From: a virus
IMG/VR virus record: IMGVR_UViG_3300044712_002664
Span: 1 to 39,539 of that record
DNA: 39,539 nt
Reading direction: 5' to 3' (one strand)
In this document: positions 1,710 to 39,539 of the stretch, one piece after another
Layout: every line of letters begins with the position of its first letter
Numbering within the stretch: position 1 is the first letter of the stretch
The notes under the pieces: model-generated
What the model was told of the DNA's origin: nothing
Databases searched by the model: none
Seen by the model: only the letters and a program-made list of their open reading frames with translations
Made by a program: the position numbers and the translations under genes

Positions 1710-3390
1710 GGCGTTCAAGTCTTTTAATTCGTTTTTCAAGTTCTTTTATCCGCTCTTCCATTCGGGCCATCTTGCCAACGAGCAATTCAGTATAGTTTAC
1801 GGCCTTTAATCCGTTTGAATCTGTATAAACCAGCTCCGGGATTACTTTCTCAACTTCCTGTGCAATCACCCCGTAACGTTTTCGCTTTAACGAATCATCA
1901 CGCATGGTAAAACCATAAAATATGATTGAATCAAACCTGTTTTTGAAATGCAATGGCCTAATGTTTTCTTTTAATCGTTTGTCTGAAAGCTGAAAGTTTG
2001 AACCAGTTACTACGCCAGAAAATGTTGCGGTTGTACCATTTAATGCTCCCGTTAAAGTACCTCCAGATAGTGATAAATATGAGTGCGTGTGGGAACTATT
2101 GGCATACCTTCCATCTAAATTAGTTGACAGATCGGTTAATCCACTTCTTGTAATGGTCAAATTACCAGTCTGATAAGCAAACGACAACCCAGTTGTGTAA
2201 TTATTACCGTCTGCATATTGAGGTATATTTAATGTTGAGCCAACCAATGTTGCTGCACCTGATGTTCCGGTAGTCGTAAGTGATATATTGTTTTGTTTTC
2301 CATTTAATTCAGTATAAACTGAGCCACCATCTACAGGATTTGTATCACCAGAACTTATACTGCCCATTTGAAGTCCCATGTAACCAGCGGCAACCCAAAA
2401 ATGTGTCGGGTTAAATGACACATAATCACTCACAGTATTTAAATAAATTTTACCCATATTAGAGTAAGCAGTATTCCAATTCGCAGAATTATTGGTTATT
2501 GAAGTTCCCCACGCTGTACCTGTTGACACGGGTATTCCCGCCCCAGGGTAAACCATTCCTGCGGGCAGCGTTTGCCATGTTTTATCTCCTCTCCAATATT
2601 GTGCTGTTGTTCCACTTGAAATTACTGGTTCGTAAACTCCGCTATGATTATGGCCCGCACTTGCAAAATCGGTAGTTGCCGAATTAGCGGCGGTTCCAAA
2701 AGTTCTTCCCTCTAAAACCGTTCCTGTAGTTGTGCCAAAATTTTTATTAAACCCAGTATTTTTTGAAAATGCTGGTTCGTAAACACCGCTATGATTATGG
2801 CCCGCACTTGCAAAATCGGTAGTTGCCGAATTAGCGGCGGTTCCAAAAGTTCTGCCCTCTAAAACCGTTCCTGTGGTTGTGCCAAAATTTTTATTAAACC
2901 CGGTATTTTTTGAAAATGCCGGTTCGTAGTTCCCTGCAACCTGCGCCCCAACCTCTGAATAAGTATAAGTTGGCTTTGTACTTGCTTTCGCCCATGAGTA
3001 TATCGTCGGGTCAGTTTCAGTAAACGATGCACTCAATACTGCCGTAGTCGGGTTGATGCTTAGGTTTGTCCCCACCTTTATACCGCCTTTTACTGTCGCG
3101 CTTGCCGTTGGCAGAACATACCCTCCATGCCCGGCATAATACCAGGGCGACCACGTTGGATTTGCTATTGGCCTAAATCGTACACTGTCGGTTTTATAAT
3201 CGGCATAAAGCAGCAATTCTTTGTGGATCGTGTCGCCCTTCCAGTAAAAAGTATTGTCTGCCTGAAGCCATTTAGTTGTCCATAACCCGTAATATTTACC
3301 GGGTGCATAATTCAGCCAACCGCTTTGTGCCATTGTTGAAACGGCATTTAAACACAGTAAAAACAGTGTTATTAAAATTAACTTTTTCAT
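1699..3390 (-). CDS. Tail fibre with C-terminal S74 chaperone domain and a signal peptide
   Basis: Probable receptor-binding fibre. Seen: signal-like N-terminus (KKLILITLFLLCLNAVSTMAQ), fibre-like Gly/Thr/Asn-rich sequence, two identical-looking 49-residue repeats ending in SAGHNHSGVYEP, another ANSSHTHSYLSLSGGTLTG segment (typical phage-fibre GGTLTG motif), and a C-terminal intramolecular chaperone: SDKRLKENI, then FRYGVIAQEVEKV-like sequence and a charged coiled coil (EERIKELEKRIKRLE). The S74 chaperone usually trimerises the fibre and then cuts itself off at the Ser of SDKRLKEN. The ATG at 3390 overlaps the upstream stop as ATGA, suggesting translational coupling. A Sec signal on a virion fibre is odd; see findings. 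Confidence 0.85.
   Translation of the reverse strand: MKKLILITLFLLCLNAVSTMAQSGWLNYAPGKYYGLWTTKWLQADNTFYWKGDTIHKELLLYADYKTDSVRFRPIANPTWSPWYYAGHGGYVLPTASATVKGGIKVGTNLSINPTTAVLSASFTETDPTIYSWAKASTKPTYTYSEVGAQVAGNYEPAFSKNTGFNKNFGTTTGTVLEGRTFGTAANSATTDFASAGHNHSGVYEPAFSKNTGFNKNFGTTTGTVLEGRTFGTAANSATTDFASAGHNHSGVYEPVISSGTTAQYWRGDKTWQTLPAGMVYPGAGIPVSTGTAWGTSITNNSANWNTAYSNMGKIYLNTVSDYVSFNPTHFWVAAGYMGLQMGSISSGDTNPVDGGSVYTELNGKQNNISLTTTGTSGAATLVGSTLNIPQYADGNNYTTGLSFAYQTGNLTITRSGLTDLSTNLDGRYANSSHTHSYLSLSGGTLTGALNGTTATFSGVVTGSNFQLSDKRLKENIRPLHFKNRFDSIIFYGFTMRDDSLKRKRYGVIAQEVEKVIPELVYTDSNGLKAVNYTELLVGKMARMEERIKELEKRIKRLERHEK
2627..2920 (-). repeat. Two tandem 147-bp repeats inside the fibre gene
   Basis: Units 2627-2773 and 2774-2920 are nearly identical, differing at only a few bases (for example ttccc/tgccc). 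Each encodes a 49-residue unit beginning EPAFSKNTGFNKNFG and ending SGVY. A third, partial copy of the first residues follows on both sides. The low divergence indicates a recent duplication. Confidence 0.9.
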
Positions 3391-5783
3391 ATATTCATGT
3401 TTTTGGTAAAGCAATATTCAATTACAATTCCACTAAGGCTTTCGCTTGCATCGATGGTTAATTCAAAACCGTCAACTAATCCGTCCGCGTTGGTCGTAAA
3501 CGCAAAGCTGTGCCATAGCACGTTTTGATCCAATATTAATCCGGCTTCAGGCTGAACAGTACGGTAAACATGCAGCGATCCGCGCCCAACAGGCGGCGTA
3601 TCGAACGGGAAATCGAACTCATGTTGCACGCTGGCCGAAACCAAACCGGTAATGATACCCGACTGCATGGCTCGCAGGTATATCCGAACAAAACCATCAA
3701 GTCCCTGTATGGCAACAAAATCATCATCGGCCATAAAGCCGGGACTTGATACCAATACCCCTTCGTCGCTAATCACATTTACCCGATGATCGATGCTATC
3801 TGGCTTTGTTGGGGTACTTTTAGCTCCATCAGTAGACTTCTCCTGGTAGTCAACTGAAGTGACCACCGACGCTTGTGTCAGATCAACCGGAAGCATCTCA
3901 ATCCATCGGCCATCTATGGCCTGGTAGCGGTCGTCATAACTTAAACCACACTCTATAAAATACTTTCCTGCATTATTCGGATCAATAACTATAAAATTAG
4001 TCCCCGGCATAATATCGGCAATACGTGCATTATAGCTTTGGCGTGGTGTACGCCGCGACGATGCTGCTATACGTGCGATAAAGTCAGCAAAAGCATAAAC
4101 TGTTGTGTCCCCAACAACTTTCCAGCCTACTGTGGCGGTATTATCCGACCGGGTAATGCCACCCTTAAATAAAATCAGTTTATTCGGGTTATCCGGAAAA
4201 TCACCGATAAGCAGCGAAACATCTTCAGGTATAAAATTATTGCGGGTGGAAACGGTTGCTTCTAAGGTCTGATTGGTTGGATAGCTGTCGTTATTATCAT
4301 CGAGCAAACTGGTAGAAAAAGAGTCGTAAGCTACACCAACTACATTCGTATCGCTCGACATCGCGCCGTAGAGATAAATTTCAATGGACCCATCTTCGGG
4401 AATACCAAGAACTGAATCAGAAAAAGTTTCGAAATGATCTGGTATTTTCCAGGAAGGCCATGCATTTACTTTATCAATAGCTGGGTAATACAAACCAGCC
4501 GGGTCTTTTGCCGCGTGAAATTTATAGTGAACAATTGGCTTGTACGCTCCTCCCATATCTTCTACCCAAACCAGACTTAGCACATTATCGACCGAGCCAA
4601 ATTCGGGCTGTAAAAAGTAGGTTTTAGTAGCTGTTATCAGCTTAATGCGCATAAAAACATTGCCCGACGAGCCTTCGCCGCCAACCAGCGCATATTTAAC
4701 ATTGAACTTCACTGCTCCATCAGTAGCTTTTACATCGATGGAATTGATTATATATTGATTCGAAACATAGTTTACATCGTGGTTTACGCGGCCTTCAATA
4801 ATTATAAACTTATCTCCATCGGCATTCAGTTGACGGGCAAGTATATTGACGTTGTTGCGTGTCCATCCCGTAAGTTCAAGCGAACCCGTCAAAGGCGAAG
4901 GGTTGTCGGAGTAAATATAATCGGCAAACGAACCATTATTAATCAGGTTCGATACATAGCCAAAATCCTGTTTTACTGATAATTTTTTTACGGCTGGCAG
5001 TATTTCCATGGCCGATTCGCCTTCAAACCAAAATCCGGTAGCGACAGGATCAACACTATCGACCGACGACGAACCACCGGCAGTATCTTTATAAAATGAG
5101 AATGTTGAATGGCCAATGGTATTCGCTAATATCCACCACTCGCCTTTGCGCTGAAACACGCGACATTCAGGCAGCAGTTTTTCAATCACTTCGTAACAGC
5201 TTAACCCCAAATAGATGTCACAGTCAACCTTGTGAACCTTCAGAATATTGGTTGATTCGGCCTGACCAGTTTCCTGCCAGTTAATAGCTGTGTTTACGGT
5301 CAGGTCAAGTCCCGTTTTCAGCAAACAAATCTTCAGGATTTCGAACATCGTTTTACGGCCCGTGTAATCGTCGCCAGCATCGTCGGTAAAATCAATATCT
5401 TTCAGGAAGCCAAGACCATCGTAGGCCGTGCATTGCACCGGGTAAGGAGTTGCAATCAATGGCTCAGTCCAGCTATCTGGTTCAATGTAACCGCGCCAGA
5501 ACATATTGCCGCCCTTTTCAATCTCAACCAAATGTTTGCGGGCATCGGCTGAAAAAAGATACAAGTATTCATAATCGAACTCCGAATCGAAAAAGATGGT
5601 ACACGACGAACCATATACCAGTGGCATAGCTTCGCTGCCCTGATCGCCCCACTCAGCACGAAACCCCGCATGCGCATAACGAACATCAGCCGATCCCGAA
5701 TAACCGTCCTGGTAGATGTTAATGCGCGTCAGTACATCTTTGATGTCGTTATATTCAATGCGAAGGCGAAGCCCGTAAGCCAT
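3387..5783 (-). CDS. Large tail-tip / hub-like protein
   Basis: 798 residues without an export signal, between the tape-measure side and the fibre genes, so probably part of the tail tip or baseplate hub. Seen: an N-terminus beginning MAYGLRLRIEYND followed by TRINIYQDGYSG and FFDSEFDYEYLYLFSADARKHLVEI, GNMFWRGYIEPDSWTEPLIATPYPV and CTAYDGLGFLKDIDF, a pattern I associate with Bacteroidota siphophage tail proteins in which an N-terminal hub-like part is followed by long beta-rich regions. No catalytic motif was recognised. Its stop overlaps the fibre start (ATGA). The assignment rests mostly on size and position. Confidence 0.65.
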   Translation of the reverse strand: MAYGLRLRIEYNDIKDVLTRINIYQDGYSGSADVRYAHAGFRAEWGDQGSEAMPLVYGSSCTIFFDSEFDYEYLYLFSADARKHLVEIEKGGNMFWRGYIEPDSWTEPLIATPYPVQCTAYDGLGFLKDIDFTDDAGDDYTGRKTMFEILKICLLKTGLDLTVNTAINWQETGQAESTNILKVHKVDCDIYLGLSCYEVIEKLLPECRVFQRKGEWWILANTIGHSTFSFYKDTAGGSSSVDSVDPVATGFWFEGESAMEILPAVKKLSVKQDFGYVSNLINNGSFADYIYSDNPSPLTGSLELTGWTRNNVNILARQLNADGDKFIIIEGRVNHDVNYVSNQYIINSIDVKATDGAVKFNVKYALVGGEGSSGNVFMRIKLITATKTYFLQPEFGSVDNVLSLVWVEDMGGAYKPIVHYKFHAAKDPAGLYYPAIDKVNAWPSWKIPDHFETFSDSVLGIPEDGSIEIYLYGAMSSDTNVVGVAYDSFSTSLLDDNNDSYPTNQTLEATVSTRNNFIPEDVSLLIGDFPDNPNKLILFKGGITRSDNTATVGWKVVGDTTVYAFADFIARIAASSRRTPRQSYNARIADIMPGTNFIVIDPNNAGKYFIECGLSYDDRYQAIDGRWIEMLPVDLTQASVVTSVDYQEKSTDGAKSTPTKPDSIDHRVNVISDEGVLVSSPGFMADDDFVAIQGLDGFVRIYLRAMQSGIITGLVSASVQHEFDFPFDTPPVGRGSLHVYRTVQPEAGLILDQNVLWHSFAFTTNADGLVDGFELTIDASESLSGIVIEYCFTKNMNI

Positions 5784-5793
5784 TTTTTAAAGT

Positions 5794-7779
5794 TTATTGA
5801 GTTACCAGTGGGTTACCATTGCTATCTAAAAGCGGTTTTCCCGTTGAATTCAGAAGTGTTTTAATATATAAATCCGGGTTAAGGATGTCCTTCAGCACCA
5901 CCATAGACGTATAAGGTTGAAGGGTTACCGTTGACGTATGCCTTGCTCCGGTTACATCGATTCCAGGAAACGGCAAAGTAACCGTAGTGGGTGATGACGT
6001 TGCATTGTAAGCAAAGGCAATATCTGATTCTGAAGAGATGGATTTTGGCGATCCGGTTGAATTGGTATCAACACCCGAAAATGTTTTCCATTGCGCCAAG
6101 GTTTTATAGCTATCCGATTGGGTCGATGGCTGATAAACCCGAATACAATTAGTGTCATCCATTGGGCGGGCATACACATTGCCAGAGGCCGAACTAATAA
6201 ACGTAGTAATGTCGTCATAAACGCTATTGGTATAAAGAGCCATCTGATCATCATACCACGGTATTCCGGTGTTGATTGATAGGGCAATCAGTTTATTGTT
6301 GGTTACTACATTATTGTTTATGCTTCCTGAAGCTTGAGTCAGGTTATTCATTGAAAGTGCAGACCTTGTATTATCGAAAACGGTGTTGCCACTTATTGTA
6401 TCATGGTCTGAACCCGAATTCAGGTAAATTCCATCCCAACAATATGCAACCGTGTTGTTTGAAACGGTAATATTTGCGGAATTACTGTCCAAATAAATTC
6501 CTCTTGCACCAACATATCCATTTTGTTCCCCAAGTGGATAGCCAATTGAATTGAGTATTATATTTCCATCAATAATTAAATGGGTTGTTTCAACGGTTGT
6601 GTAAATACCACCGCCATCGCTGCGGTTTAAAAGGCTGTAATTAATAAAATTGTTTCGGACCTGACCAGTTAAACCAGTGTGCATAATGCCATCGTAACCA
6701 CTGTGTTGAATGGTGTTGTATTGGACCAATGAAACATCGGTATTGGTGTGGATAGCAGCCGCCTGGTACAATCGGCCAACACCAAGTACCATATAGGTAC
6801 TGTCAATGGTATTATTAGTAATTGTTTCGTTGGTGTTCTTTGTTCCGCCATACGAGAACACGGCTGAATAATTACAATTTTTAATCGTGTTTCCGTTAAC
6901 CACATAAGTGCCTGTGTTGTAAAAGTAGATGCCTTCCAAACCTATTTTACTGATTGTGCAATTTGAGATAGTAATATTACTGCACGCATTAAATTTCAAA
7001 GCCATTTCGTTCGCACCCTGAAAGGTGATGTTCTGCACTGTAATATTTGATTTTGCGTAATTATCAGATAAAATACTTACAGTTGGCACATATACATTTA
7101 CAGGCTGTGATGTGCTGTATATCCTTAGTTTTTTTGTATTTGGATTATAGTACCATTCGTTCTGAATATCTAAAGTTCTAGTGTCTGCCTGAAAAAAGAA
7201 ACCACAATTATCGGTAGGTGTAAAAGTGCCTTCATCGGTATAACTTACAGTACCTCCCGATTGACTTGTAACAGTACCTACTTGCCATGTCCAGGCGTTT
7301 TTTCTAATTACAACCTGTGCCCCTGTCCAATTTGGAGTTCCAGATAATTGATTGCTTGTAATTGATATGTTAGCATTATGGGTTTGCGCTGTATAAACCG
7401 ATCCGGCATTTGGGGTACGTCCCATTGCGGTATTAACCCCATTAATGATAACAATATTTAGATTTGAAAGGGTTGAAACTTCATTGGTGCTTTCCCAAAC
7501 ATTTGAACCTAAATTAGTCCATGAAGTAACCTGATTGAATCCTGTAATTACGGGATTTGCACCTGTTCCATAAGCTGCATAAGTTACACCAGATCGAAAG
7601 TTTAATGCACCAGAAAATATTTCACCTCTTTTCAGTTGTACATGATCACCTGATGCAAAAGCATAAGTTTGCGCTGTCGTAAAGGTCATATCACCACCAG
7701 AAGGAGCAACCTGATAAGTTGCTGAATATGCTGAAATTGTGAATATCAGCAAAATATATAATAGTAGTTTTTTCATCAC
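5794..7779 (-). CDS. Exported right-handed beta-helix protein
   Basis: 661 residues. Seen: signal peptide (KKLLLYILLIFTISAYSATYQV), then from about residue 230 to 480 a run of short repeats rich in N-x-I/V (SNITVQNITFQG, ACSNITISNCTISKIG, NTIKNCNYSAVFSYGG, NTIQHSGYDGIMH, ISGNTVFDNTRSALSMNN) typical of parallel beta-helix repeats of the pectate-lyase/tailspike type. The fold fits a carbohydrate-binding or depolymerising tailspike, but no catalytic residues could be assigned. Its stop abuts the start of the DUF-less upstream gene at 7780, so both belong to one leftward operon. Confidence 0.75.
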   Translation of the reverse strand: MMKKLLLYILLIFTISAYSATYQVAPSGGDMTFTTAQTYAFASGDHVQLKRGEIFSGALNFRSGVTYAAYGTGANPVITGFNQVTSWTNLGSNVWESTNEVSTLSNLNIVIINGVNTAMGRTPNAGSVYTAQTHNANISITSNQLSGTPNWTGAQVVIRKNAWTWQVGTVTSQSGGTVSYTDEGTFTPTDNCGFFFQADTRTLDIQNEWYYNPNTKKLRIYSTSQPVNVYVPTVSILSDNYAKSNITVQNITFQGANEMALKFNACSNITISNCTISKIGLEGIYFYNTGTYVVNGNTIKNCNYSAVFSYGGTKNTNETITNNTIDSTYMVLGVGRLYQAAAIHTNTDVSLVQYNTIQHSGYDGIMHTGLTGQVRNNFINYSLLNRSDGGGIYTTVETTHLIIDGNIILNSIGYPLGEQNGYVGARGIYLDSNSANITVSNNTVAYCWDGIYLNSGSDHDTISGNTVFDNTRSALSMNNLTQASGSINNNVVTNNKLIALSINTGIPWYDDQMALYTNSVYDDITTFISSASGNVYARPMDDTNCIRVYQPSTQSDSYKTLAQWKTFSGVDTNSTGSPKSISSESDIAFAYNATSSPTTVTLPFPGIDVTGARHTSTVTLQPYTSMVVLKDILNPDLYIKTLLNSTGKPLLDSNGNPLVTQ

Positions 7780-21487: not shown

Positions 21488-21937
21488 ATGAATGCCGAAT
21501 TTCTGAACAAACTGAAAGAAATAACCCGCCGGTTGCCGGAGGTAGTTAAACGTTTGCCTGGCATTGCCAAGGTAGAAGGCTTGCAGTTTATACATGATAA
21601 TTTCGATAAGGAAGGTTTTGAAGATCGACCAGGATCGGTAAGGAAATGGGAAAAGCGGAAGCCTGAAAAAGGCAAGAAAAGCAAACGATCAGGACGCGGT
21701 ATATTGATCGACAAGGGAACCATGCGCCGTTCGTTTGATACGGATACGCAGGCCAAACAGACAAGCGTTGAGTTTACCAGTTCGATGCCTTATACCGAAG
21801 CTCACAACGATGGATTGACCGCCGGACGACCTCCGGGCTTTACTATGCCTGAACGTAAAATGATTGGCGACTCGCTTGCCCTGGATAAACGCATTGAGGA
21901 TAAGTTAGACCGTATGGTCGCACAAGTGATTGAATGA
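21488..21937 (+). CDS. Mu gpG-like virion morphogenesis protein
   Basis: 149 residues. Seen: N-terminal helical segment (NAEFLNKLKEITRRLPEVVK), a Lys/Arg-rich middle (WEKRKPEKGKKSKRSGRG), ILIDKGTMRRSFDTDT and SSMPYTEAHNDGLTAGRPPGF, with ERKMIGDS. The 'ILIDKGTLR.S' plus 'YA.iHN.G' pattern is typical of the phage virion morphogenesis / tail completion family. It belongs to the rightward head operon. Confidence 0.75.
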   Translation: MNAEFLNKLKEITRRLPEVVKRLPGIAKVEGLQFIHDNFDKEGFEDRPGSVRKWEKRKPEKGKKSKRSGRGILIDKGTMRRSFDTDTQAKQTSVEFTSSMPYTEAHNDGLTAGRPPGFTMPERKMIGDSLALDKRIEDKLDRMVAQVIE

Positions 21938-25344: not shown

Positions 25345-26550
25345 TTAAAATAAACTTGGCATACTTGACTTATCTTTAAATATTTGAGTAAATTGTTTTG
25401 TCGCTAGAGGTTCAGTTCCATCCCATCTTTGAGGCCAAATATTATTTTTCCAATGCCATTTTATGCGTTCAAATTCTTCTTGATTAAGAAAGTCAATTGG
25501 CTGTTTACCTTGATCAATAGCCATAAGGTTTATTTTTGTCTGCACCTCAAATATTCGATCTGTAAAATGTTTCCTAGCATCCATTGTTAACGGTCCAACC
25601 CGAAAAGGATTCTTGGAAAGTTTACCGTCGTTGTTGGTTTCACCGTGTTTTCTGAGTCGATGTTCAAATAATCTCATCTCTCTGTAAATTGGCCGTAATT
25701 CTTTGATTGGTTCGATGTATCCCCATTCATCCGGATACAGTTTTAAAACAGAATCGAGTGCCGTATCATGATCTACAAGCGGGCAACCGTTGCAACCGGT
25801 TCTAGCATTTATCTCATTGGCTTTGTCACCACCATAAGCTTGTGCTAACATTCTGGTATCCCAGCCTCCATATTTCTTTTGTGGAGCGAAGTACATTAGC
25901 CAATCCCAAACGTTACAAACCCGCCAATGAATAATTGGGGCAATGGTAGCAGTTACTTTGTTGTCTAATGTATTCATATACCAACCTTGACCACATTCTG
26001 CACCGTTCTTTGTGCAAGCCATAGTCAAACGTCCATCTCTTATTGCACTTTCGCCCATCCTGACGCCGGTGATTGTTAGAACTTTTTCTGATCGGGTTTC
26101 AAATTCTTCCGATATAGCCTTTTGCATCGGCCATATCTTGATCTGATCTGTACACCATCGCATAGTATTGCTAGGTGGCGGAACTCCACGTCCTAACATA
26201 TACACGAAAAACCGGTGATCAATGTCTGTTTGTACAACCTGAGTTTTTAACCACGGAAAATTTAAATCGTTTATTTGTTTGATTAATTTGGCTGCGGAAA
26301 TAGCAAGCGGTGGAAGCTCCATCCTGGTATCTGCATACATTACAGTCAATGTTTTCGGCTGTGGAATTTGCCCGGAAAGGATAAGATAAATAACTAGGGT
26401 CATCGTAGCAGTTGAATCCTTTCCACCTGACCACGCTATAACCCAGTGTTTATGACTATATGCGTATGCTTTTAGTGATAGAATTGTCAATTCCTGGCAC
26501 TCACCAACGCTTATTTTTTGAATCCCAAATAAATTTGATGTTTGTATCAT
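25345..26550 (-). CDS. DndC-like / PAPS reductase-type ATP pyrophosphatase
   Basis: 401 residues. Seen: the PP-loop SGGKDSTATM at residues 41-50, MYADTRMELPPL, TMRWCTDQIK (Cys133), and two later cysteine pairs at 179/186 (MACTKNGAECG) and 253/256 (TGCNGCPLVD) that could ligate an Fe-S cluster, as in DndC. DndC-type enzymes activate or cleave ATP and hand sulfur to DNA in phosphorothioation; relatives in phages have no proven function. No dndB/D/E partner was found in the window. Its start overlaps the next gene by 4 bases, so it belongs to the early operon. Confidence 0.85.
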   Translation of the reverse strand: MIQTSNLFGIQKISVGECQELTILSLKAYAYSHKHWVIAWSGGKDSTATMTLVIYLILSGQIPQPKTLTVMYADTRMELPPLAISAAKLIKQINDLNFPWLKTQVVQTDIDHRFFVYMLGRGVPPPSNTMRWCTDQIKIWPMQKAISEEFETRSEKVLTITGVRMGESAIRDGRLTMACTKNGAECGQGWYMNTLDNKVTATIAPIIHWRVCNVWDWLMYFAPQKKYGGWDTRMLAQAYGGDKANEINARTGCNGCPLVDHDTALDSVLKLYPDEWGYIEPIKELRPIYREMRLFEHRLRKHGETNNDGKLSKNPFRVGPLTMDARKHFTDRIFEVQTKINLMAIDQGKQPIDFLNQEEFERIKWHWKNNIWPQRWDGTEPLATKQFTQIFKDKSSMPSLF

Positions 26551-27958: not shown

Positions 27959-28270
27959 CTAAGTAAACATGTATCTGTCATTCTCTTCAACAATAATAGT
28001 GGTAAACGGAAACCCGGTTTCGGGTATCTTTTGTATCACCTCAATCAATCCGACCGATGAAGTAAAAACAACATGTTTCCGGTTATCGAACGATATTTGA
28101 AGGTGAAGGCATTTTCCCGATCCTTTCTCCTGGAATGATTTAACTTTCGAATCTTCCAGCTTGAAATGATGTACAACGATCTCACGGTTCAGAATCTTCG
28201 ACATTTTTATTTTATCGCCTTCAAACGACTGGCTCTCTATTTTAATGTTGAATTGGCTAAATGAATTCAT
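27959..28270 (-). CDS. Small protein overlapping the RT stop, possible DGR accessory
   Basis: 103 residues, MNSFSQFNIKIESQSFEGDK, predicted mixed alpha/beta, no membrane segment. Its start overlaps the RT stop by 4 bases (ATGA), so it is probably translated with the RT. I recall similar small proteins in other Bacteroidota phages but know no function. It is not the usual Avd protein (a four-helix bundle) judging by composition. Confidence 0.6.
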   Translation of the reverse strand: MNSFSQFNIKIESQSFEGDKIKMSKILNREIVVHHFKLEDSKVKSFQEKGSGKCLHLQISFDNRKHVVFTSSVGLIEVIQKIPETGFPFTTIIVEENDRYMFT

Positions 28271-29217
28271 GCGAGTAATTTTTTCATGAGGTTTTTACTG
28301 TTACAATGCGATGCCCACCCGTTATATGAAGCAATTGATTGGGCATTACGCCGCTTTTTCAGCATGCGGGCAAAGCGTTTTTTGATGTTTTTCCGGAGAA
28401 GTACGTGTGTGTGCCGAAAGACATAACCAACAAAGTCAATGCCGCGATCTTTAACAGGGAATAGTTGATAATTACCTTTTAATTCGAGCTTCAGATTGTC
28501 ATGTAAATAAATTCTTATATCGGAAAGTATTTGGTGCAAATAAGGCTTGTTTGAGGCCAGTATAACCAAATCGTCGGCATAACGGAAATAATATTTTACT
28601 TTCCGGTCTTCTTTAATCCAATGATCGAAATAAGCGAGGTAGAAGTTTGCAAAATACTGGCTCAGGTAATTACCAATTGGAAGTCCAACGGTGCTGTCTA
28701 TGATCTCATCAAGCAACCATAGCAGATCGTTATCTTTAATTTTACGGCGAAGTAAGTTTTTTAGAATTTCGTGATCAATCGAAGGGTAAAACTTTTTGAT
28801 ATCGAGCTTCAGACAATAGCGGGTATTTTCAATATCGGTTAAAGCACACTTCATCGCTTTTAGTGCGGCATGTATCCCACGGCCCTTAATACAGCTATAT
28901 GTGTCATTGGTAAATGTTGAAACAAAAACAGGCTCCAGTATATTCATTACCGCATGGTGGGTAATACGATCGGGGAAGTAGGGCAAACGGAAGATCAGGC
29001 GTTCTTTGGGTTCGAAAATTGTAAATGTAGTATATGCTGACGTCCGGTAAGTTTTGTCGCGTAGCATTATATGCAGTGCCTGAATGTTTTGTTCGCGGTT
29101 CCGGTCGTGCTGAATGACTCCTGGCTGATTCAATTTTCCCTTTCGGGCAATTTCATCGGCCAGTTGCAGGTTTTCGATGCAGTAAATTTTCTGATATAAG
29201 TTATTTATTCGTTTCAT
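28267..29217 (-). CDS. DGR reverse transcriptase
   Basis: 316 residues; makes mutagenic cDNA from the template RNA. Seen: LKLDIKKFYPSIDHEIL (residues 136-152) with the catalytic Asp139, VGLPIGNYLSQYFANFYL (177-194) where the usual PQG is replaced by IGxxxSQ as is typical of DGR RTs, and YFRYADDLVIL (210-220) with the YADD active site. The C-terminal thumb region (KDRGIDFVGYVFRHTHVL) is present, and the basic C-terminus is complete. It starts 102 bases after the template repeat, giving the order target, target, template, RT. An AAAGGA lies directly before the ATG. Confidence 0.95.
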   Translation of the reverse strand: MKRINNLYQKIYCIENLQLADEIARKGKLNQPGVIQHDRNREQNIQALHIMLRDKTYRTSAYTTFTIFEPKERLIFRLPYFPDRITHHAVMNILEPVFVSTFTNDTYSCIKGRGIHAALKAMKCALTDIENTRYCLKLDIKKFYPSIDHEILKNLLRRKIKDNDLLWLLDEIIDSTVGLPIGNYLSQYFANFYLAYFDHWIKEDRKVKYYFRYADDLVILASNKPYLHQILSDIRIYLHDNLKLELKGNYQLFPVKDRGIDFVGYVFRHTHVLLRKNIKKRFARMLKKRRNAQSIASYNGWASHCNSKNLMKKLLA

Positions 29218-29318
29218 TCCTTTGCTTTTTAATGAGTCGTTTTCTCTTTACAAATACCAACGCCCCGTTAAACATTCGTTATTTTTTGCACTGTTGGCAA
29301 GGTTTACACCGCAGAATA

Positions 29319-29399
29319 GCATAGGTGAGAGCTGACAGTCGTATTCGTGTTATCGTAGTTGTAATTCGAATTCGAAAAACTGAAACCGGAAGACAGAAC
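29319..29399 (-). repeat. DGR template repeat (TR)
   Basis: The 81 bases align without gaps to VR1 (29513-29593) and to VR2 (29934-30011). In the coding direction it reads CTG TCT TCC GGT TTC AGT and continues through AAT TAC AAC TAC GAT codons; translated it is N/Y/T-rich (NSNYNYDNTNT). Differences from the variable repeats are at A of this strand: 15 of 16 for VR1 and 15 of 15 for VR2. The segment lies in the noncoding gap between the second target gene and the RT, as in most DGRs. Confidence 0.93.
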
Positions 29400-29431: not shown

Positions 29432-29848
29432 TTATTCTGAATACAACAAAAAGTCGCGATATTCAGACTCAAATTGCACAGCTATGTACATGGCCTTTTC
29501 GCTGGTATCAACGCAAAGGCGAGAGCCGACAGCCGTACCCGTGCCATCGCAGCCGTCATACGAACGCGAAAAACCGAAACCGGAAGACAGAACCTCAAAC
29601 CAGGGATAGTATTTGTATTGATCCCAATCGCTCCAATCTGGCTTCCATCCGTTATTTATAGCTTTATAAATAACCAGGAGTTTATAGTAAGCCACAACAT
29701 GCTTTTTCATTTCTTCGGGAATCATGGATACGTCGGGCAATTGTTGCGGATCAATGTTCTCTTTAGCGCAGGCGTCTTCAAAGGTTTTGATTGATCTGAA
29801 ATCAAATTCAATCACTTTATTTTCTTCGTTTGCTGATTTTGTAGTCAT
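29432..29848 (-). CDS. DGR variable protein 1
   Basis: 138 residues. Seen: INNGWKPDWSDWDQYKYYPW just before the variable repeat, then VLSSGFGFSRSYDGCDGTGT, AVGSRLCVDTS and a helical tail (VQFESEYRDFLLYSE). The variable residues sit in the short GFGF...GSRLC window, so the binding site is probably there; the fold is expected to be C-type-lectin-like as in other DGR targets, but this was not shown. No signal peptide or membrane segment, no fibre features. A paralogue lies immediately upstream (4-base gap). A ligand is unknown. Confidence 0.9.
   Translation of the reverse strand: MTTKSANEENKVIEFDFRSIKTFEDACAKENIDPQQLPDVSMIPEEMKKHVVAYYKLLVIYKAINNGWKPDWSDWDQYKYYPWFEVLSSGFGFSRSYDGCDGTGTAVGSRLCVDTSEKAMYIAVQFESEYRDFLLYSE
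29513..29593 (-). repeat. DGR variable repeat 1 (VR1)
   Basis: Aligned to the template: AGT to GGT, AAT to CGT and TAT, AAC to GGC (twice), TAC to TGC, AAT to GGT, ACT to GCT, AGC to GGC, CAC to CGC, CTA to CTT, plus one T change (TAC to GAC). Unchanged bases are almost all non-A, as expected for adenine mutagenesis. Confidence 0.92.
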
Positions 29849-29852
29849 AATT

Positions 29853-30320
29853 TTATTTTTTAATGGTTAAAAACTGTTCGTAAATTTCAATGAATTGCTT
29901 TGCTGCAAAATTGCTTTTGGCTTCAGTTTCAAAGCAAAGGCGAGAGCCGACAGCCGCACCCGTGCTACCGTAGAGGTAACCCGAATACGAAAAACCGAAA
30001 CCGGAAGACAGATTAAACCACGGCCACCACTTTTGTTGATTGTTATTGCTCCAATCCGGAGTCCAGCCCTGGTTGATAGCCTTAACAACCATTTTTAACA
30101 TCCGATATGCCCATTCATCAGTCGATTCTTCGTCCGAAATTTTCAGATAGCCTTTGGTATGTCCGGTTTCTTCTGCCGCATCTTCAAGCGTTTTTATGTC
30201 CTCAAAACCTCGTTTTGCAAAAGTTTCTTTACCAAAGTTTTCTACAAGTATTTCCTGAAACCAGACCGGAGCTTCCGGATAGATTTTTTTTGCTGTTGAT
30301 TTTTGAATTGTTAATCCCAT
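29853..30320 (-). CDS. DGR variable protein 2
   Basis: 155 residues, paralogue of the protein at 29432-29848. Seen: MGLTIQKSTAKKIYPEAPVW, a charged helical part, then AINQGWTPDWSNNNQQKWWPW and the variable window NLSSGFGFSYSGYLYGS, TGAAVGSRLCFETEA, ending in a helix (AAKQFIEIYEQFLTIKK). The block GWxPDWS...PWF is common to both. No signal peptide. First gene of the DGR. The function of the pair is unknown. Confidence 0.9.
   Translation of the reverse strand: MGLTIQKSTAKKIYPEAPVWFQEILVENFGKETFAKRGFEDIKTLEDAAEETGHTKGYLKISDEESTDEWAYRMLKMVVKAINQGWTPDWSNNNQQKWWPWFNLSSGFGFSYSGYLYGSTGAAVGSRLCFETEAKSNFAAKQFIEIYEQFLTIKK
29934..30011 (-). repeat. DGR variable repeat 2 (VR2)
   Basis: All 15 differences from the template within 78 bases are at template A positions, e.g. 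AAT to TAT, AAT to GGT, AAC to CTC, GAT to GGT, AAC to AGC, ACG to GCG. It shares with VR1 the 3' changes ACT to GCT, AGC to GGC, CAC to CGC and CTA to CTT. Confidence 0.92.
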
Positions 30321-30328
30321 AATTTTGA

Positions 30329-30532
30329 TTATTGATTATTATTTTGTTCGAATAAGATTGGCTGTAGTGCATCGGCAACGACAGTTTTAACCGGATGCTG
30401 ATTATTTGAGAGGATATCGTCAATTTCGCGTTCGGCCCTTTTGCAGGCCTGAAGCGTAAGCGGATCGCGACTGCTGAAGTACTGTTTTTGTAGTCTTCTC
30501 ATTTCAGCAACTTTTTGGATGAAGTCTTCCAT
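30329..30532 (-). CDS. Small early phage protein
   Basis: 67 residues, MEDFIQKVAEMRRLQKQYFS, helical and charged. Starts one base inside the stop of the DUF4494-like gene (TAATG) and lies 8 bases before the DGR target gene. It is not a recognisable Avd protein. Confidence 0.55.
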   Translation of the reverse strand: MEDFIQKVAEMRRLQKQYFSSRDPLTLQACKRAEREIDDILSNNQHPVKTVVADALQPILFEQNNNQ

Positions 30533-30981
30533 TACATTACCTCTTTTGGTTCGCTTTCAAAATAGGGGAATACATCAACTATATTGCTGATCGTTAGGGA
30601 GGTGATTTCGTAAGGAACCAGGATGTAACTTAATCCATCTTCAAAGGCTTTTAAAGCGTGTTTAAAATCGGTGGCTTCTATCAGGAATGATTCGTTGATA
30701 CGCTTTTCCCGGCCTGCATGTTCATCGATGGTTACAATCGATATTTTACCGGTGTAGTAACAACCACCTTCGGCGTTTGGAAAAATTTCGACAATGTTTG
30801 TTTGTGTAATTTGTTTGACAACAAACTCACCTCTGACCATTTGGCGGCATTGCTCTGTAATGCGCGATTCGGCATCGGTATAGGATACCGCATCGACTAA
30901 ATAAGCTTCTGACACTTTGCGTTCGCGTCCATCGTCGTCGACCTTAAGGTATCGGACTACGCATTTAAACCATGTTTGCAT
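30532..30981 (-). CDS. DUF4494-like protein
   Basis: 149 residues, MQTWFKCVVRYLKVDDDGRER with YLVDAVSYTDAESRITEQ, then TGKISIVTIDEHAGREKRIN and SFLIEATDFKHALKAFEDG. This twice-repeated pattern is the DUF4494 family, common in Bacteroidota phages and mobile elements. Function unknown. The stop overlaps the next gene by one base. Confidence 0.75.
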   Translation of the reverse strand: MQTWFKCVVRYLKVDDDGRERKVSEAYLVDAVSYTDAESRITEQCRQMVRGEFVVKQITQTNIVEIFPNAEGGCYYTGKISIVTIDEHAGREKRINESFLIEATDFKHALKAFEDGLSYILVPYEITSLTISNIVDVFPYFESEPKEVM

Positions 30982-33014: not shown

Positions 33015-33635
33015 TTATTTGTTTGATAGTCCCCAATAATCGTTTGCTTTTTCTTCGCTTATGTCGATGTATTCTCCACCTCCGTACCGGCCAACAGGGA
33101 AGGCCCTGAAACCTTCGATTCGAAAAGCGCAGTTTGCATCGCGCCAAATATTCTGCGCTACTTTTCCGTCGGGCTTTCTTCCGTCGGTATGAGAAACATA
33201 AATGAATAGTTTGTGTGGAAATTCAGCTTTCAGTTTTTTATAGTCGGAAAAACGGATGCCCCAAAACTGAATGGTATCGATAACTACCACATGCGGGCTT
33301 TTATGAGCCGATAAACGTTCGCGAAGCTCATCAGCCGATTCGTTGGCAACCATGATAAACTTACCATGTACATCGGCCATGTTGGTACGCGAATAAGCCT
33401 CCTGAATGGATAATGATAATCCTTCCTCGACGGCATTGTAAAGGATGCGCCCCCAATTGGTCAGATATTTCGTTAATTCCATGGTGAATGATGTTTTACC
33501 GTTTTTTATGTCTCCAAAAACTATCCATGTACCGCAAAATTCGGGGCAACCAACAGCGTCTTTCCATTTTCCGGCGAATGGTAAAACCTTGAATTTTGCA
33601 TCGAGAACATTCTTTACAGAATAGGCTCGCTTCAT
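33015..33635 (-). CDS. RecA-fold ATPase
   Basis: 206 residues. Seen: Walker A FGDIKNGKTS at residues 40-49 and Walker B HVVVIDTIQFWG with Asp120, then PHKLFIYVSHTDGRKPDG, a pattern like RecA/DnaB-type (KaiC/RadA-like) ATPases. Length is short, so only the ATPase core is present. It overlaps the MuB-like gene by 4 bases and may assist in replication or transposition. A specific activity cannot be named. Confidence 0.75.
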   Translation of the reverse strand: MKRAYSVKNVLDAKFKVLPFAGKWKDAVGCPEFCGTWIVFGDIKNGKTSFTMELTKYLTNWGRILYNAVEEGLSLSIQEAYSRTNMADVHGKFIMVANESADELRERLSAHKSPHVVVIDTIQFWGIRFSDYKKLKAEFPHKLFIYVSHTDGRKPDGKVAQNIWRDANCAFRIEGFRAFPVGRYGGGEYIDISEEKANDYWGLSNK

Positions 33636-34516
33636 TTATTTTTAGTTAGTTCGTTGTATATTCGTCGTAATGAGGGGCGGCCATCTTCGCCCATTGTGTT
33701 GCGCAGTATCATACCGTGATTCGATCCTTCAGGAGCGTTGGCTTTAATAATCATAGTAGCGGTGGCTTGCAATAGTTTTCCACCTTCGTCGCTTCCGGAA
33801 GGGATTACTTTGCCGTATCGTTTGCCAAAACGGCTGAAAAGTTCTGAAAAACCTACTTTATGGTAGTTGATTGAATTACGCATGCGGGCTTCAAGTCCGT
33901 CGGCTCCCATCATGTAAAAGCTGCAAAAAGGTGCAGTAGCATTCCATAGGGCCTTTATCTCCAACAATGCGGTATAATCCAAATCACCGGCTTCGTCGAG
34001 TACAACCTGGGGAGTGATTAAACTTTTCAGGTAAAAAACAAGATCCTGGTAAACTTCGGAGTAACGGCCTGCGCTTCCCACTCCAAAACCCTGGGCAATT
34101 GCCCGAATCAAACGCTGTTTGCTTTTAACCTGGCTGCAATCGATGTACACTGAATTTTTGTTATTCCGGCAGTAATACATAGCGGCGTAAGTTTTGCCAA
34201 TGTCGCTTAAATCGACCAGCATAGAGCTCAATCCCTGGCGTTGGCATACGTCTAACTGAGTGGTTATAAACTGGAAGACTGGAGTATTAGCCGTTTGCCA
34301 TGCCGCGCGGTTATTCAGGCTTATATTGAAGTGGCGACCCAAACTAATCCATTTGGCATCGGAAAGTACCTGGTCGGTTTCTCCTTTTTTAATTCGGGAA
34401 TAAATGGAATTGTTAATTCCGATTGATACAGAAAAACGGGTATCGGAACCTGAGAAGTTAGCGCGTGAAACGGCTATCGCTTCTACTACCTTGATTTTAA
34501 ATTCATCTGTGATCAT
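33632..34516 (-). CDS. MuB-like transposition ATPase
   Basis: 294 residues; in Mu, MuB delivers target DNA to MuA. Seen: an N-terminal DNA-binding helix-turn-helix region (about residues 1-65, with INNSIYSRIKKGETDQ), a degenerate Walker A VDLSDIGKTY (GKT at 107-109, first Gly of the loop replaced), and Walker B PQVVLDEAGD (Asp174, Glu175). A sensor-like SFYMMGADGLEAR follows. It directly follows MuA, as in Mu. Confidence 0.85.
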   Translation of the reverse strand: MITDEFKIKVVEAIAVSRANFSGSDTRFSVSIGINNSIYSRIKKGETDQVLSDAKWISLGRHFNISLNNRAAWQTANTPVFQFITTQLDVCQRQGLSSMLVDLSDIGKTYAAMYYCRNNKNSVYIDCSQVKSKQRLIRAIAQGFGVGSAGRYSEVYQDLVFYLKSLITPQVVLDEAGDLDYTALLEIKALWNATAPFCSFYMMGADGLEARMRNSINYHKVGFSELFSRFGKRYGKVIPSGSDEGGKLLQATATMIIKANAPEGSNHGMILRNTMGEDGRPSLRRIYNELTKNK

Positions 34517-34530
34517 GATTGTGAGTTTAA

Positions 34531-36579
34531 TTAGAGTGAATCAATTGCTTTAGCTGCCCAATCGTCGTAGTTAAACTCATCGGCTTCGTATCCGGTGGGT
34601 TGCACGGTTTCGGGAACTATAATGGTTTCTGTTTCGTCAATCTCTTTAGCCTGTTTGGCGTCCATACTGCCTACAATCGGAATGTCGGAACGGCGTTCGC
34701 GTATCATTTTATCGAATTTAGCGAGGCGTTTTTCCTGGTGAAGCATTCCGGCAGCATCGTCGTCGGTACGTTCAATCTTACATTCGTTATAGGCCCATTG
34801 TATTTTGTTATGCGCTTCGCACAGGTAAGTGTCGCCCTGGTATAGATAAGCGGTAAGGCAAGTGCCATCCTGTTCGGGCATCCAGTAGGCGTTAATGCTG
34901 GTATTGTTTGGTTTTAGCCGGTTAATGGCTGTATAGTCGGCAATCTCGAAACGCTCGTTGTTTATCCAGCACCAGTCGTTATTATTCAGGCTCGTTTCGG
35001 TAACATTGCCAATAAATTTATACAGGTACCAGTTTTCAATCTGTTTAAGCGCCGGGTTAATACGTTGCATCAGCACATCGCGGCGTGTCATTCCTGGGTA
35101 AGTCTTTTGTAAGGGGTGCAGTTCGTTGTTGTGTTTTACCACGTCGGCCAAATCGTCGGCGACAATGGTTTGAGGCTGTAATTTGTCGGCTTTAAAATTG
35201 TTAGTCTTAATCGTTCCGTTCAGGAGCTTATCCGATTCCTTACCTTCAATTACATAGTCGCCATTTACTTTATTGCGCACACTTCGGTAGGCTTCGTGTC
35301 CGGCATACCAACGCCCGCGCGTGTGGCCTTCGTTTTTCGATACTCCATATTTAAAAGCCTTAATAGCATGCTCGGCGCGTTTTTCGGTAAAACTTTCACA
35401 GAACCGAACAAAAGGAAACAACTCATTCAGCCAACTGATATCCTGCATGAGGTGGTATTCAACTTCCAGTTCGCCAGGCATCGGCATGTTTAATTCGGCC
35501 AGTTCGCAAAACATGTTGCGGAACGATTCGATAACAGTGTTTGCCGTTGGTTTACCAACCACATAGGCCGGGCGGAACCAGTAACCGCTAACCACATCAA
35601 CAGCAATGTATTTATAAACCCATCCGCGAACACTCTGGCGACTCATGGCCACGTCATCCATCGAAATTTTACTCAATGAGAAGGCTCCCAGTTTGCGCTG
35701 ATGCTTTGGCCGTTTTTTATTCATGTAATCGAAGTTTCCGTTACGGTCGGTGTAAACTGAGGTATTATTAATTTCGTCTTTCAGGTAATTCCATACAGTT
35801 GCTTCGCTTACTTCCATTGCCCGGCCTTTATGCCTGAAGTCGGAAGGGTTAAATATTTCGCCAGTTGTGCGGTCGTGAAGTTCTTTCGATCCGGAAACGA
35901 ATTCGAGGTAACGCTGATGAACTGTTGTAACGAATGGCTTATCGTATGTGCGCCATAAGGCTAAAAACAAATTCTCGATTGAGGTAGAAACTTTGCGGCT
36001 GTTGTCGTTACCCTGGTTGCCGTGAATAAGACTGTCGTAACCGTCTTTTAAATAAGTTTTAAAAACCCTTTCAAGACTACGTGAATTGCTTATGCGGGCG
36101 CATGGGTATTTTATTAATTGTTGATTATACCAGTCAACAGCCTGCTCCCAAAATTCGCCCATTTTAATACGCTTACCGGCTTTAGCGCGGGCGGCTTGCT
36201 GCATTTGCAAACCTCTGCGTAATCCGTTCAGTATGCTGGCCCGGTTGGTGTACTCTTCAACGGCATCAACTTCAAGCGGTGCACCGTCGTTTTTCCTGAA
36301 TGTCAAATAATAGTCGCGGGCCTTAGTGTCAATTTGTACCGAATAAGTTGGTAATACCTTAGCCGGTTGATCTACTTTTCCAAATGCAGCCTCAATAATG
36401 CGTTTCCGGTCGGGTCGCTTTATCGAATGAACATCGATCATTGTGTTACCATTGATTGACCGGTGAACGATTTTGAGAAAACCGCGCTTTGAGTCGTGTT
36501 CAAATTGACTTCGTGTAAATCCGAGATTAATCCAATCGTTTACAGAAATTGCAACCGTATTGTCAAGAGTTTGGTACAT
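34531..36579 (-). CDS. MuA-like DDE transposase
   Basis: 682 residues; joins phage ends to target DNA. Seen: an N-terminal DNA-binding part (residues 1-80, ISVNDWINLGFTRSQFEHDS), a catalytic core with SMDDVAMSRQSVRGWVYKYI (first Asp 308 or 309) and AVDVVSGYWFRPAYVVGKPT, and the third acid in FTEKRAEHAIKAFKYGVSKN (Glu403), followed by the typical GRWYAGHEAYR. The central Asp is not obvious; PGELEVEYHLMQ stands where it is expected, so its identity is inferred. Ends with an acidic C-terminus. Confidence 0.92.
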   Translation of the reverse strand: MYQTLDNTVAISVNDWINLGFTRSQFEHDSKRGFLKIVHRSINGNTMIDVHSIKRPDRKRIIEAAFGKVDQPAKVLPTYSVQIDTKARDYYLTFRKNDGAPLEVDAVEEYTNRASILNGLRRGLQMQQAARAKAGKRIKMGEFWEQAVDWYNQQLIKYPCARISNSRSLERVFKTYLKDGYDSLIHGNQGNDNSRKVSTSIENLFLALWRTYDKPFVTTVHQRYLEFVSGSKELHDRTTGEIFNPSDFRHKGRAMEVSEATVWNYLKDEINNTSVYTDRNGNFDYMNKKRPKHQRKLGAFSLSKISMDDVAMSRQSVRGWVYKYIAVDVVSGYWFRPAYVVGKPTANTVIESFRNMFCELAELNMPMPGELEVEYHLMQDISWLNELFPFVRFCESFTEKRAEHAIKAFKYGVSKNEGHTRGRWYAGHEAYRSVRNKVNGDYVIEGKESDKLLNGTIKTNNFKADKLQPQTIVADDLADVVKHNNELHPLQKTYPGMTRRDVLMQRINPALKQIENWYLYKFIGNVTETSLNNNDWCWINNERFEIADYTAINRLKPNNTSINAYWMPEQDGTCLTAYLYQGDTYLCEAHNKIQWAYNECKIERTDDDAAGMLHQEKRLAKFDKMIRERRSDIPIVGSMDAKQAKEIDETETIIVPETVQPTGYEADEFNYDDWAAKAIDSL

Positions 36580-37691: not shown

Positions 37692-37777
37692 GTTTTGTAC
37701 AATTTGTTTTTTGTCGCTCTTTGCTAACTATCACATATTCAAATTAATCAATGTTTTGTTTTGTACAATTTGTTTTT
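37692..37777. repeat. Two direct repeats near the phage terminus, putative transposase sites
   Basis: The 20-bp word GTTTTGTACAATTTGTTTTT occurs at 37692-37711 and 37758-37777, 66 bp apart. The inner core TTGTACAA is palindromic. From the phage end at about 37793, the first copy begins 16 bp inside. This is the arrangement of MuA end-binding sites. Confidence 0.65.
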
Positions 37778-37792
37778 ATCCCCTTATTTTAC

Positions 37793-37794
37793 AG
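37793..37794. mobile_element. Predicted prophage-host junction
   Basis: The last phage-like bases read ...TTATTTTACA, so reading inward the end starts TGTAAAATAA, as expected of Mu-type ends (5'-TG). Just outside, the coding sequence of the fasciclin-like gene begins (GATACATGG). The exact base is an inference. Confidence 0.5.
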
Positions 37795-38503
37795 ATACAT
37801 GGAATATCACTGTTTAAATAAAACAATGTATTTATCTGATTTTGAATCTACGTTTTATCCCATCCTTTCATCAGAGAATAATGTCTCGGTTACTATTAAC
37901 GATGATTATAAGTTAAATCTCAATTCTAAAACCCAAAAATATACAGGTTTTTATATTCCTCAATCAAATATCCCGACGATAAATGGTGCTATCCATGTAA
38001 TCAACGACTTATTACCTGTTACAATACCGGAACGTAAACCAATAACATTTGAGACAACTGATTTTTTCGATTTCCGTATGGGCGACCACTATAAAGACCA
38101 TATTATGAAATGGGCAACTGATACATTTCCGAATGGAACTACCCAATTTGCAAAAATTCATTGGCTAGGTGAAAATTTAATATATTGGTACTTTCCCAGT
38201 GCCAATCATTTTATTAATTGCGATTGCCTGGAGATGTTGGGTTTCTGGCGTTTATCTGTAACTTTTCCAAAAATTATGAAAGGGAAATATCAAATCTCGT
38301 TTATTTCCGGTTTAGGCGCTTCTGACTTTTCGGTTGAATTGGATGGAAAAATGATGCCTGGCATTTATACTATTCCACAAGGAACAAGGAAAGTTATAGC
38401 AATTGCGGATTTTCCAACAACTTCAGAGCATACTTTTACTCTAAAATCAATGATTTATGGTTATATTTTTTGGGACGGGTTACTGTTTGAACCAATAGAT
38501 TAA
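37794..38503 (+). pseudogene. Host fasciclin-domain (DUF5108-like) protein, 5' part cut off by the prophage
   Basis: The open frame continues into phage DNA (an ATG at 37751 gives 250 residues) but homologous-looking sequence starts only near residue 15, YRYMEYHCLNKTMYLSDFES. Seen: TKYTGFYIPQS... NIPTINGAIHVINDLLPVTI, the end of a fasciclin domain, then a beta-rich C-terminal domain (GMIYGYIFWDG). Such proteins sit in polysaccharide utilisation loci. Signal peptide, lipobox and the first fasciclin parts are missing and probably lie beyond the other phage end. Confidence 0.7.
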
Positions 38504-38546
38504 AGATTGAATGAAATAAAAACAAGTATCAAATATTTCAAAATCG

Positions 38547-39539
38547 ATGAAAAAAATCCTTTACACAAGTCAGATATTATTGTTACTTACTTTGCTTTTA
38601 AGTATTTCAATAGAAGCACAGGTTCTGTATGTCGGTGCTAACTACCACCCACACGACGATAAAAATCCTGAAAAAATAAAAAAGGACATTGAGTTGATGA
38701 AAGCTGCCGGGTTTACCGCTGTCCGATTGGGGCATTTGGCCTGGGACAGCTACGAACCATCAGAAGGTGTTTTCGACTTTGAATGGTTCGATTTGGTGAT
38801 GGACGAGATGAATAAAGCCGGTATAAAGGTTATTCTTGACATTGCCGTGCGTCCCGCACCCATGTGGCTGCACCATAAATTCCCATCGATTGATGTAGTT
38901 GATAAAAATGGTGATGTGCAATACCCGAACCATCGCTACATGGAAGATGTGGGTGATCCGAATTACCAGAAATATGCCCTGCGTTTTGCCGACGAAATTA
39001 CAAAACGGTATGGAAAACATCCGGCGCTGGCGGCTTTTGGCGTTGACAATGAATCCGGTGACGGTCCTATTTCTTATTCAGAAACAGCTAAACAACGATT
39101 CATTGTTTGGCTGAAAAATAAATATTCGAATATTGATAATTTAAACAAAGCGTGGGCTACCCAACGTTGGTCGAGACGATTTAACCAGTTTGAGGAAATT
39201 GGGTTCCCTGTGGCAACCCACACCAACGATGTGCCCGAACGGATGCTCGATTTCAGGCGTTTCGTATCGGATGAAGTCAATCAATTCCTTTTCAGGGTAA
39301 TTGATAAAATCAACACCAATGCGCCCAACGCCCTGGTAAACACTAATGCCTGGTATTACAGCCCCTTGAAATATTTCGATTATTCCGAGATTGCCTATTC
39401 GGGCAAAATGACGCGGGAAGGTTGCGGCTTTTATCCCGGGACAACATTAACCACCAACTGGGGTGTTATGAATGCCCTGTTCGGAATTGCCCGTATTCAG
39501 TTCGAAAGTACAAACCCTTTCTGGTGCAGCGAGTTTACC
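38547..39539 (+). CDS. Secreted GH42 beta-galactosidase, 3' end outside the window
   Basis: 331 residues visible, frame open to the last base. Hydrolyses beta-galactosides. Seen: signal peptide (KKILYTSQILLLLTLLLSIS, then IEAQ), GANYHPHDDKNPEKIKKDIE, TAVRLGHLAWDSYEPSEGVF, DIAVRPAPMWLHHKFP, and GVDNESGDG with the expected acid/base Glu169. These are the GH42 TIM-barrel landmarks; the nucleophile would lie beyond the window. Host gene, next to the fasciclin-domain gene in a likely polysaccharide-use locus. Confidence 0.9.
   Translation, partial: MKKILYTSQILLLLTLLLSISIEAQVLYVGANYHPHDDKNPEKIKKDIELMKAAGFTAVRLGHLAWDSYEPSEGVFDFEWFDLVMDEMNKAGIKVILDIAVRPAPMWLHHKFPSIDVVDKNGDVQYPNHRYMEDVGDPNYQKYALRFADEITKRYGKHPALAAFGVDNESGDGPISYSETAKQRFIVWLKNKYSNIDNLNKAWATQRWSRRFNQFEEIGFPVATHTNDVPERMLDFRRFVSDEVNQFLFRVIDKINTNAPNALVNTNAWYYSPLKYFDYSEIAYSGKMTREGCGFYPGTTLTTNWGVMNALFGIARIQFESTNPFWCSEFT

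Follow-up and report, generated by a model that had tools for sequence, protein, structure and literature searches.

Why would a phage aim targeted hypermutation at proteins encoded among its early genes? Phage DGRs are read almost entirely as tail-tropism devices, and two DGR targets far from any tail gene do not fit that reading easily. They lie in what we call the window, the 39,539 bases that make up the whole of IMG/VR record IMGVR_UViG_3300044712_002664 and that belong to a Mu-like temperate phage of Bacteroidota. The original prediction described two diversified proteins of about 140-155 residues at 29432-30320, with no signal peptide or membrane segment and a position among early and DNA-metabolism genes, and raised the possibility that they act on an intracellular partner. 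The description holds: the open reading frames encode 138 and 155 aa, and the adenine bias between VR and TR is plain. The interpretation stands in part, and we develop it below from the organization of the cassette, its relatives in other phages and its resemblance to known systems.

The cassette is compact and lies entirely on the minus strand. T1, the first target (155 aa, 29853-30320), carries an extra N-terminal helical part; its stop codon lies 4 nt from the start of T2, the second target (138 aa, 29432-29848), in a tandem arrangement. An 87-nt repeat is found in T1 (VR1, 29926-30012) and in T2 (VR2, 29505-29591), and its third copy, TR (29311-29397), is intergenic between T2 and the reverse transcriptase (RT) gene. 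Adenine occupies 21 of the 87 TR positions, and these adenines take 16 of the 20 mismatches with VR1 and 16 of the 21 with VR2. When the whole 39.5-kb record was scanned with TR adenines as wildcards, the T1 and T2 sites scored 1.0 and 0.967, and no other site exceeded 0.567. The mismatch bias and the scan scores together argue that the TR/VR match is not due to chance. The record holds no third TR target, and no tail gene in it is diversified. Fourteen TR codons contain an adenine, and approximately 2e11 amino-acid variants are open to each target.

An IMH-like block lies at the 3' end of each repeat, at 29934-29950 in VR1 and at 29513-29529 in VR2, both on the minus strand. The VR1 copy, TCGGCTCTCGCCTTTGC, encodes the conserved GSRLC. 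The IMH-like motif TCGGYTCNCGCCTTTG is seen again at target genes of related phages, with 58 sites in 29 of 33 related records, and all 58 sites lie at target genes of this family. The VR 3' ends are thus marked by a conserved block that, judged by sequence, is a putative IMH. The RT (316 aa, 28267-29217, minus strand) is of DGR type, adjoins TR, contains the motifs VGLPIGNYLSQ and RYADD, and matches the phrog_1423 (E 6.8e-127) and RVT_1 (8.4e-17) profiles. Overlapping its end is a conserved 103-aa cassette protein (phrog_19665, 27959-28270, minus strand). By neighbour clustering, the phrog_19665 protein follows the RT at 64 loci, against 89 loci with an RT, and it shows a weak resemblance (E 0.025) to what follows the split RT of LoVEphage. 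It is a candidate for an uncharacterised DGR accessory factor, of the Avd type or otherwise. Promoter and terminator scans scored at or below chance level, leaving a private promoter unsupported, and the RNA of the TR region folds no better than shuffled sequences (z 0.55).

The same mutational signature extends to related phages. Across 134 VRs from 71 loci, TR adenines hold 2005 of 2437 TR/VR mismatches, while adenine makes up 25.6% of TR positions; six rows in this set (L017, L036, L052, L066, L083 and L084) seem to align one VR with another rather than with a true TR, which dilutes rather than inflates the figure. Four cassettes in the terminase region (L048, L049, L064 and L090), each with three tandem DGR targets, are especially informative. 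L048 and L049 have 13 differences over 5997 bp, all 13 in the T1 VR; L049 and L064 have 12 differences over 4705 bp, all 12 in the T2 VR; and L048 and L090 have 13 differences over 6861 bp, of which the third target's VR holds 12. Nearly identical phages that differ almost only in their VRs indicate that diversification is live. Each compared pair differs in another target, and these single-VR differences indicate that the targets vary independently and have done so recently. The cassette is a working DGR, active in nature.

The position of the targets is equally clear. The early operon of the window starts with a MuA-like transposase (phrog_310, 34531-36579) and continues on the same minus strand with a MuB-like DNA transposition protein (phrog_296, 33632-34516) and a DUF4494 protein (30532-30981), which also neighbours the cassette in several Mu-like relatives. 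Other neighbours of the targets are an ATPase, a phrog_846 protein (whose relative in L026 is a DUF3164 protein), a PAPS-reductase-like protein and a DnaA C-terminal protein. Tail and head genes occupy 1-16 kb and packaging genes 16-22 kb. The recognised tail genes, encoding the tape measure, the major tail protein and an S74 fibre, lie at 1.7-12 kb, past the head and packaging genes. The sole nearer gene of connector type is a neck/tail-completion gene at 21488-21937, approximately 7.5 kb from the targets and on the opposite strand.

The proteins themselves offer few handles on function. Kyte-Doolittle hydropathy detects neither a leader-like N-terminus nor a membrane segment in either target (19-residue maxima 0.41 and 0.59), and by the same measure the hydrophobic N-terminus or membrane segment of a TvpA-type surface lipoprotein is absent. 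Both are acidic, with net charges of -2 and -8. All 132 aligned family members match phrog_11581, a label without a function; searches of the targets against Pfam and NCBIfam gave no match, and the family profile, run against PDB sequences, returned only noise. The lone match to a virion family comes from one member that hits a 'tail protein' PHROG. Outside the VR, scaffold residues are strongly conserved across the family. The N-terminal part of T1 was found on no other protein of the collected loci, so that no domain fusion hints at a function.

Structure prediction, proposed along with the original claims, has been partly rewarding. For T2, AlphaFold with 132 sequences models a helical core with confidence (pLDDT 84.7, pTM 0.78); the VR is placed there as a low-confidence strand-loop (pLDDT about 62-66) that runs between an aromatic KYYPWF stretch and GSRLC. 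A first model of T1, from 17 sequences, is poor, with a VR pLDDT below 50. Neither Foldseek nor VIA-align found a PDB fold match for the T2 model, the VR part of which is of low confidence, and the fold matches in a viral library are uncharacterised phage proteins only. The modelled arrangement of two helices followed by short strands round the VR would fit a C-type-lectin-like core in reduced form, and a C-type lectin fold itself went undetected in every search (Foldseek, VIA-align and sequence profile).

Searches of viral contigs place relatives of the targets at more than 300 sites, and a search of the plasmid collection returned none. The order T1-T2-TR-RT-103-aa protein recurs in more than 80 related loci. 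Pairing of the targets was counted in 82 RT-bearing loci, a few of them near-duplicates, whose 5' side is intact: 67 have two targets, five have three and ten have one. Tandem targets are separated by at most 12 nt in 63 of 80 cases. In L011, a single in-frame ORF of 318 aa (5126-6082) unites two target domains, both with intact VR 3' ends; this natural fusion, about 40 kb from the cassette of L051 on the same contig, hints that the paired proteins work together. The fusion sits upstream of genes without an assigned function, possibly structural ones. A 43.9-kb phage (L018) encodes a third, stand-alone family member at 1986-2384, approximately 5 kb upstream of its cassette. The RT is absent from the analysed stretch in 28 target-bearing loci, some of which are merely cut off.

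How the cassette is distributed speaks to its function. Thirty-five loci share nothing but the cassette with the window, the RT being 72-82% and T2 50-68% identical; 13 of these loci hold at least 14 kb, and each is only part of its phage. The opposite pattern is seen in L071, where TerL is 93% identical to that of the window and T2 only 60%. A cassette shared without other genes, together with the contrast between TerL and T2 in L071, indicates that it moves between phages; over 10 loci, the link between cassette identity and identity of the phage backbone is not significant. Twenty-three loci place the cassette in the early block of Mu-like phages and about 17 in phages with TerS or TerL, mostly between these two genes, and the remaining cassettes lie among replication, ParB, DUF4406, DUF5131 and DNA methyltransferase genes. 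Phage early regions often encode RtcB and DNA methyltransferases; such neighbours point weakly to a role in conflict. The cassette was seen in a tail module in none of the related loci, and fibre and baseplate families are missing from the 25 most frequent neighbour families, a list that could miss rare ones. An adhesin of the tail would be expected to stay with that tail, so the portability of the cassette counts against a tail role.

The targets have relatives among known DGR targets, and the original prediction needs correcting in this respect. Viral DGR targets are mostly tail proteins, with some non-structural ones among them (Roux 2021). The LoVEphage protein QVQ57199.1 aligns with our family profile over its full length (hhalign 99.7%, E 8e-27). 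Like T1 and T2, it is DGR-diversified (19 of 19 TR mismatches at A), lacks a leader and has a DNA-metabolism setting, with methyltransferases, a DUF2400 protein and RtcB as neighbours. Unlike the tandem pair that adjoins the RT in the window, it is a single target, far from its RT, and its TR is common to the tail collar fibre. In Quimbyvirus, a counter-defence island encodes the second of two DGR targets, a non-structural protein for which a role in phage-host conflict was proposed, and a C-type lectin domain was reported for this homologue (Benler 2021, PMC8008677). Each of LoVEphage and Quimbyvirus shows a match of approximately 95% to the B. dorei CP011531 prophage, and this shared match, together with matching neighbour genes, makes QVQ57199 very probably the second DGR target of Quimbyvirus (ORF80/84). 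With this protein in the family, non-structural phage DGR targets have a precedent. Four inducible prophage species likewise have a distal second VR near counter-defence genes (2025 Nature, PMC12629997). We found no description of a self-contained two-target cassette in the open-access literature, supplements aside. What is new here is this dedicated, mobile, two-target and tail-free form, and the link of its targets to the Quimbyvirus/LoVEphage protein.

LoVEphage and the phage Versailles also connect the family to tails. A single TR in LoVEphage feeds both the collar tail fibre and QVQ57199, whose VRs are 88% identical at the nucleotide level, and outside the VR we detect no relation between the scaffolds of the tail protein and the early protein. 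In Versailles, one TR feeds the tail protein WAK79192 and the early-region protein WAK79127 (VR identity 87% nt; sites at L130 13833-13944, L130 13631-13742 and L094 10244-10355). Like T1 and T2, WAK79127 belongs to the family, is encoded in the early region and carries a VR, with A at 15 of 16 mismatches, but its TR also serves a tail protein and the RT lies approximately 44 kb away in the linear record. We considered the 'tail protein' label of WAK79127 as virion evidence and rejected it; the label is probably explained by the VR that it has in common with the real tail protein. Homology to a fibre-associated adhesin, which the original prediction would have counted against itself, therefore extends to the VR piece, while the scaffolds are unrelated.

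The closest named RTs, at 48-59%, are those of crAss-like phages (e.g. cr60_1 and LMMB), in which the RT adjoins a tail protein, whereas the RT of the window adjoins early proteins. The LMMB DGR target is a tail protein (PMC7290462). In a plausible history, a tail DGR gained an early-protein target and some lineages then dropped the tail target, giving rise to a portable two-target cassette. A TR that serves both a tail adhesin and an early protein, as in LoVEphage and Versailles, would provide a route by which a tail DGR is captured for a second purpose. The BPP-1 Mtd DGR has the same TR/VR/RT logic and adenine bias, but Mtd is a tail-fibre tropism determinant with a C-type lectin fold, whereas the window targets have another scaffold and lie outside the tail module. 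DGR targets of Thiohalocapsa and other cells, which we liken to T1 and T2 by description, are cellular proteins associated with NACHT/STAND and other conflict genes and proposed to be bacterial sensors; they provide a precedent tied to anti-phage conflict, not adhesion (Dore 2024, PMC10907252).

On balance, we lean slightly toward reading the cassette as a self-contained mobile DGR that diversifies two leaderless paralogues, encoded among early and DNA-handling genes, as cytoplasmic binders. Its parts differ in strength. That T1 and T2 are non-virion proteins is probable, and, should this be so, a role in conflict is fairly likely. The original suggestion of an intracellular target is upheld where it sets the proteins apart from conventional tail or surface targets, given more than 80 non-tail loci, the portability of the cassette and a leaderless scaffold of their own; the intracellular part of the suggestion is plausible. 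In the mechanism that we propose, the RT would introduce errors at A while copying TR RNA, and the resulting cDNA would overwrite VR1 and VR2 as far as the GSRLC/IMH block. Each target would be a compact helical scaffold that displays its VR as a short strand-loop region, and T1 and T2 would probably act together, as a complex. They would act in the cytoplasm of the infected cell by binding a partner that changes fast; host defence proteins and proteins of competing phages are the likeliest candidates.

Several consequences would follow. The variants are written into phage DNA, so each new variant would be tested in the next infected cell, with a tight linkage of genotype and phenotype. The cassette shares its strand and gene block with MuA and MuB and, by what is known of Mu regulation, should be silent in the lysogen and active in infection or induction. 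Such timing would favour takeover or counter-defence over lysogenic immunity. One could envision an adaptive binder repertoire in the host cell, in which the DGR re-randomises the cytosolic pair against fast-evolving proteins of host defence or of rival phages and the unit is exchanged between unrelated phages. This fuller scenario is tentative, and we doubt it somewhat more than we credit it.

Alternatively, T1 and T2 could be virion adhesins or decoration proteins that join the particle late, with VRs that bind cell-surface or mucus ligands, and the system would then generate ordinary tropism variation from an odd position. Virion proteins are encoded outside the tail block in some tailed phages, and the terminase genes near the cassette in about 17 loci lie at the early-late border, where late expression is possible. 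Moreover, the segment that VRs of this family have in common with tail adhesins in LoVEphage and Versailles is fed by the same TR, so surface ligands may be what the VR face evolved to bind, and the RT has its closest relatives beside crAss-like tail proteins. We nonetheless consider a virion role unlikely: beyond the VR, no relation between the scaffold and the tail protein is detected, the same T1 and T2 occur in phages with unrelated structural genes, the neighbour families listed lack fibres and baseplates, and the one 'tail protein' PHROG hit aside, no virion family is matched, the Versailles label probably reflecting VR similarity. The VR in common with a tail adhesin, and the small size and lack of a leader of the targets, would also suit cytosolic proteins freed in bulk at lysis, which would coat receptors on debris or neighbouring cells and so shield virions or exclude competitors, their VRs binding the same class of ligand as the tail adhesin. 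This is improbable in our view, since an early-operon position in Mu-like phages predicts early rather than bulk late synthesis and phages of the window type have no tail VR.

Other readings keep the proteins inside the cell or give them little to do. As regulatory or immunity factors, the VR proteins could bind repressors or nucleic acids of co-resident prophages in an anti-repressor-like manner, instead of defence proteins. The phages are temperate, anti-repressor-type genes occur in the same regions and two paralogues would fit a heteromeric binder; the absence of a detected DNA-binding motif and the acidity of the targets speak against this idea, which we hold to be no more credible than release at lysis. 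The remaining explanation, that the targets matter little and serve a selfish mobile unit as a harmless place in which to dock its own VR, seems to us very improbable. High mobility and the 28 target loci without an RT in the analysed stretch would agree with it, with the caveat that some of these are truncated, but the scaffold shows strong residue conservation outside the VR, 67 of 82 loci retain two targets, and the family also survives in phages without an adjacent RT in view. Conservation, pair retention and persistence without an RT indicate that the proteins are probably selected for themselves.

Read as cytoplasmic binders, T1 and T2 suggest that targeted hypermutation may be a weapon of phages within the infected cell. 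A dedicated, mobile DGR outside the tail, widespread among Bacteroidota phages, would mean that hypermutation of this kind also serves intracellular conflict. T1 and T2 offer a concrete, testable pair, with inducible homologues known from the LoVEphage prophages of B. thetaiotaomicron and P. dorei.

Other features of the window deserve mention. The PAPS-reductase-like protein is encoded downstream of the cassette (25345-26550, minus strand; phrog_12882, E 8e-149), and in LoVEphage and BI-TP1 (L095, L096) the homologous target likewise has a PAPS reductase nearby. The product of the last gene of the tail block (984-1739, minus strand) starts with a hydrophobic stretch and resembles Lcl_C/DUF1566 at its C-terminus, with an Lcl_C Pfam score of 1.8e-7 that is just under the cut-off. 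Domains of the Lcl_C/DUF1566 type are diversified by DGRs in other Bacteroides phages; a VR matching the window TR is absent from this gene. At the right end, 37751-39539 on the plus strand encodes a beta-galactosidase of family GH42 (PF02449, E 1.8e-68), apparently with a signal peptide, adjoined by an ORF of 250 aa. This end probably belongs to the host, as DNA next to an integrated Mu-like prophage, and not to the phage.
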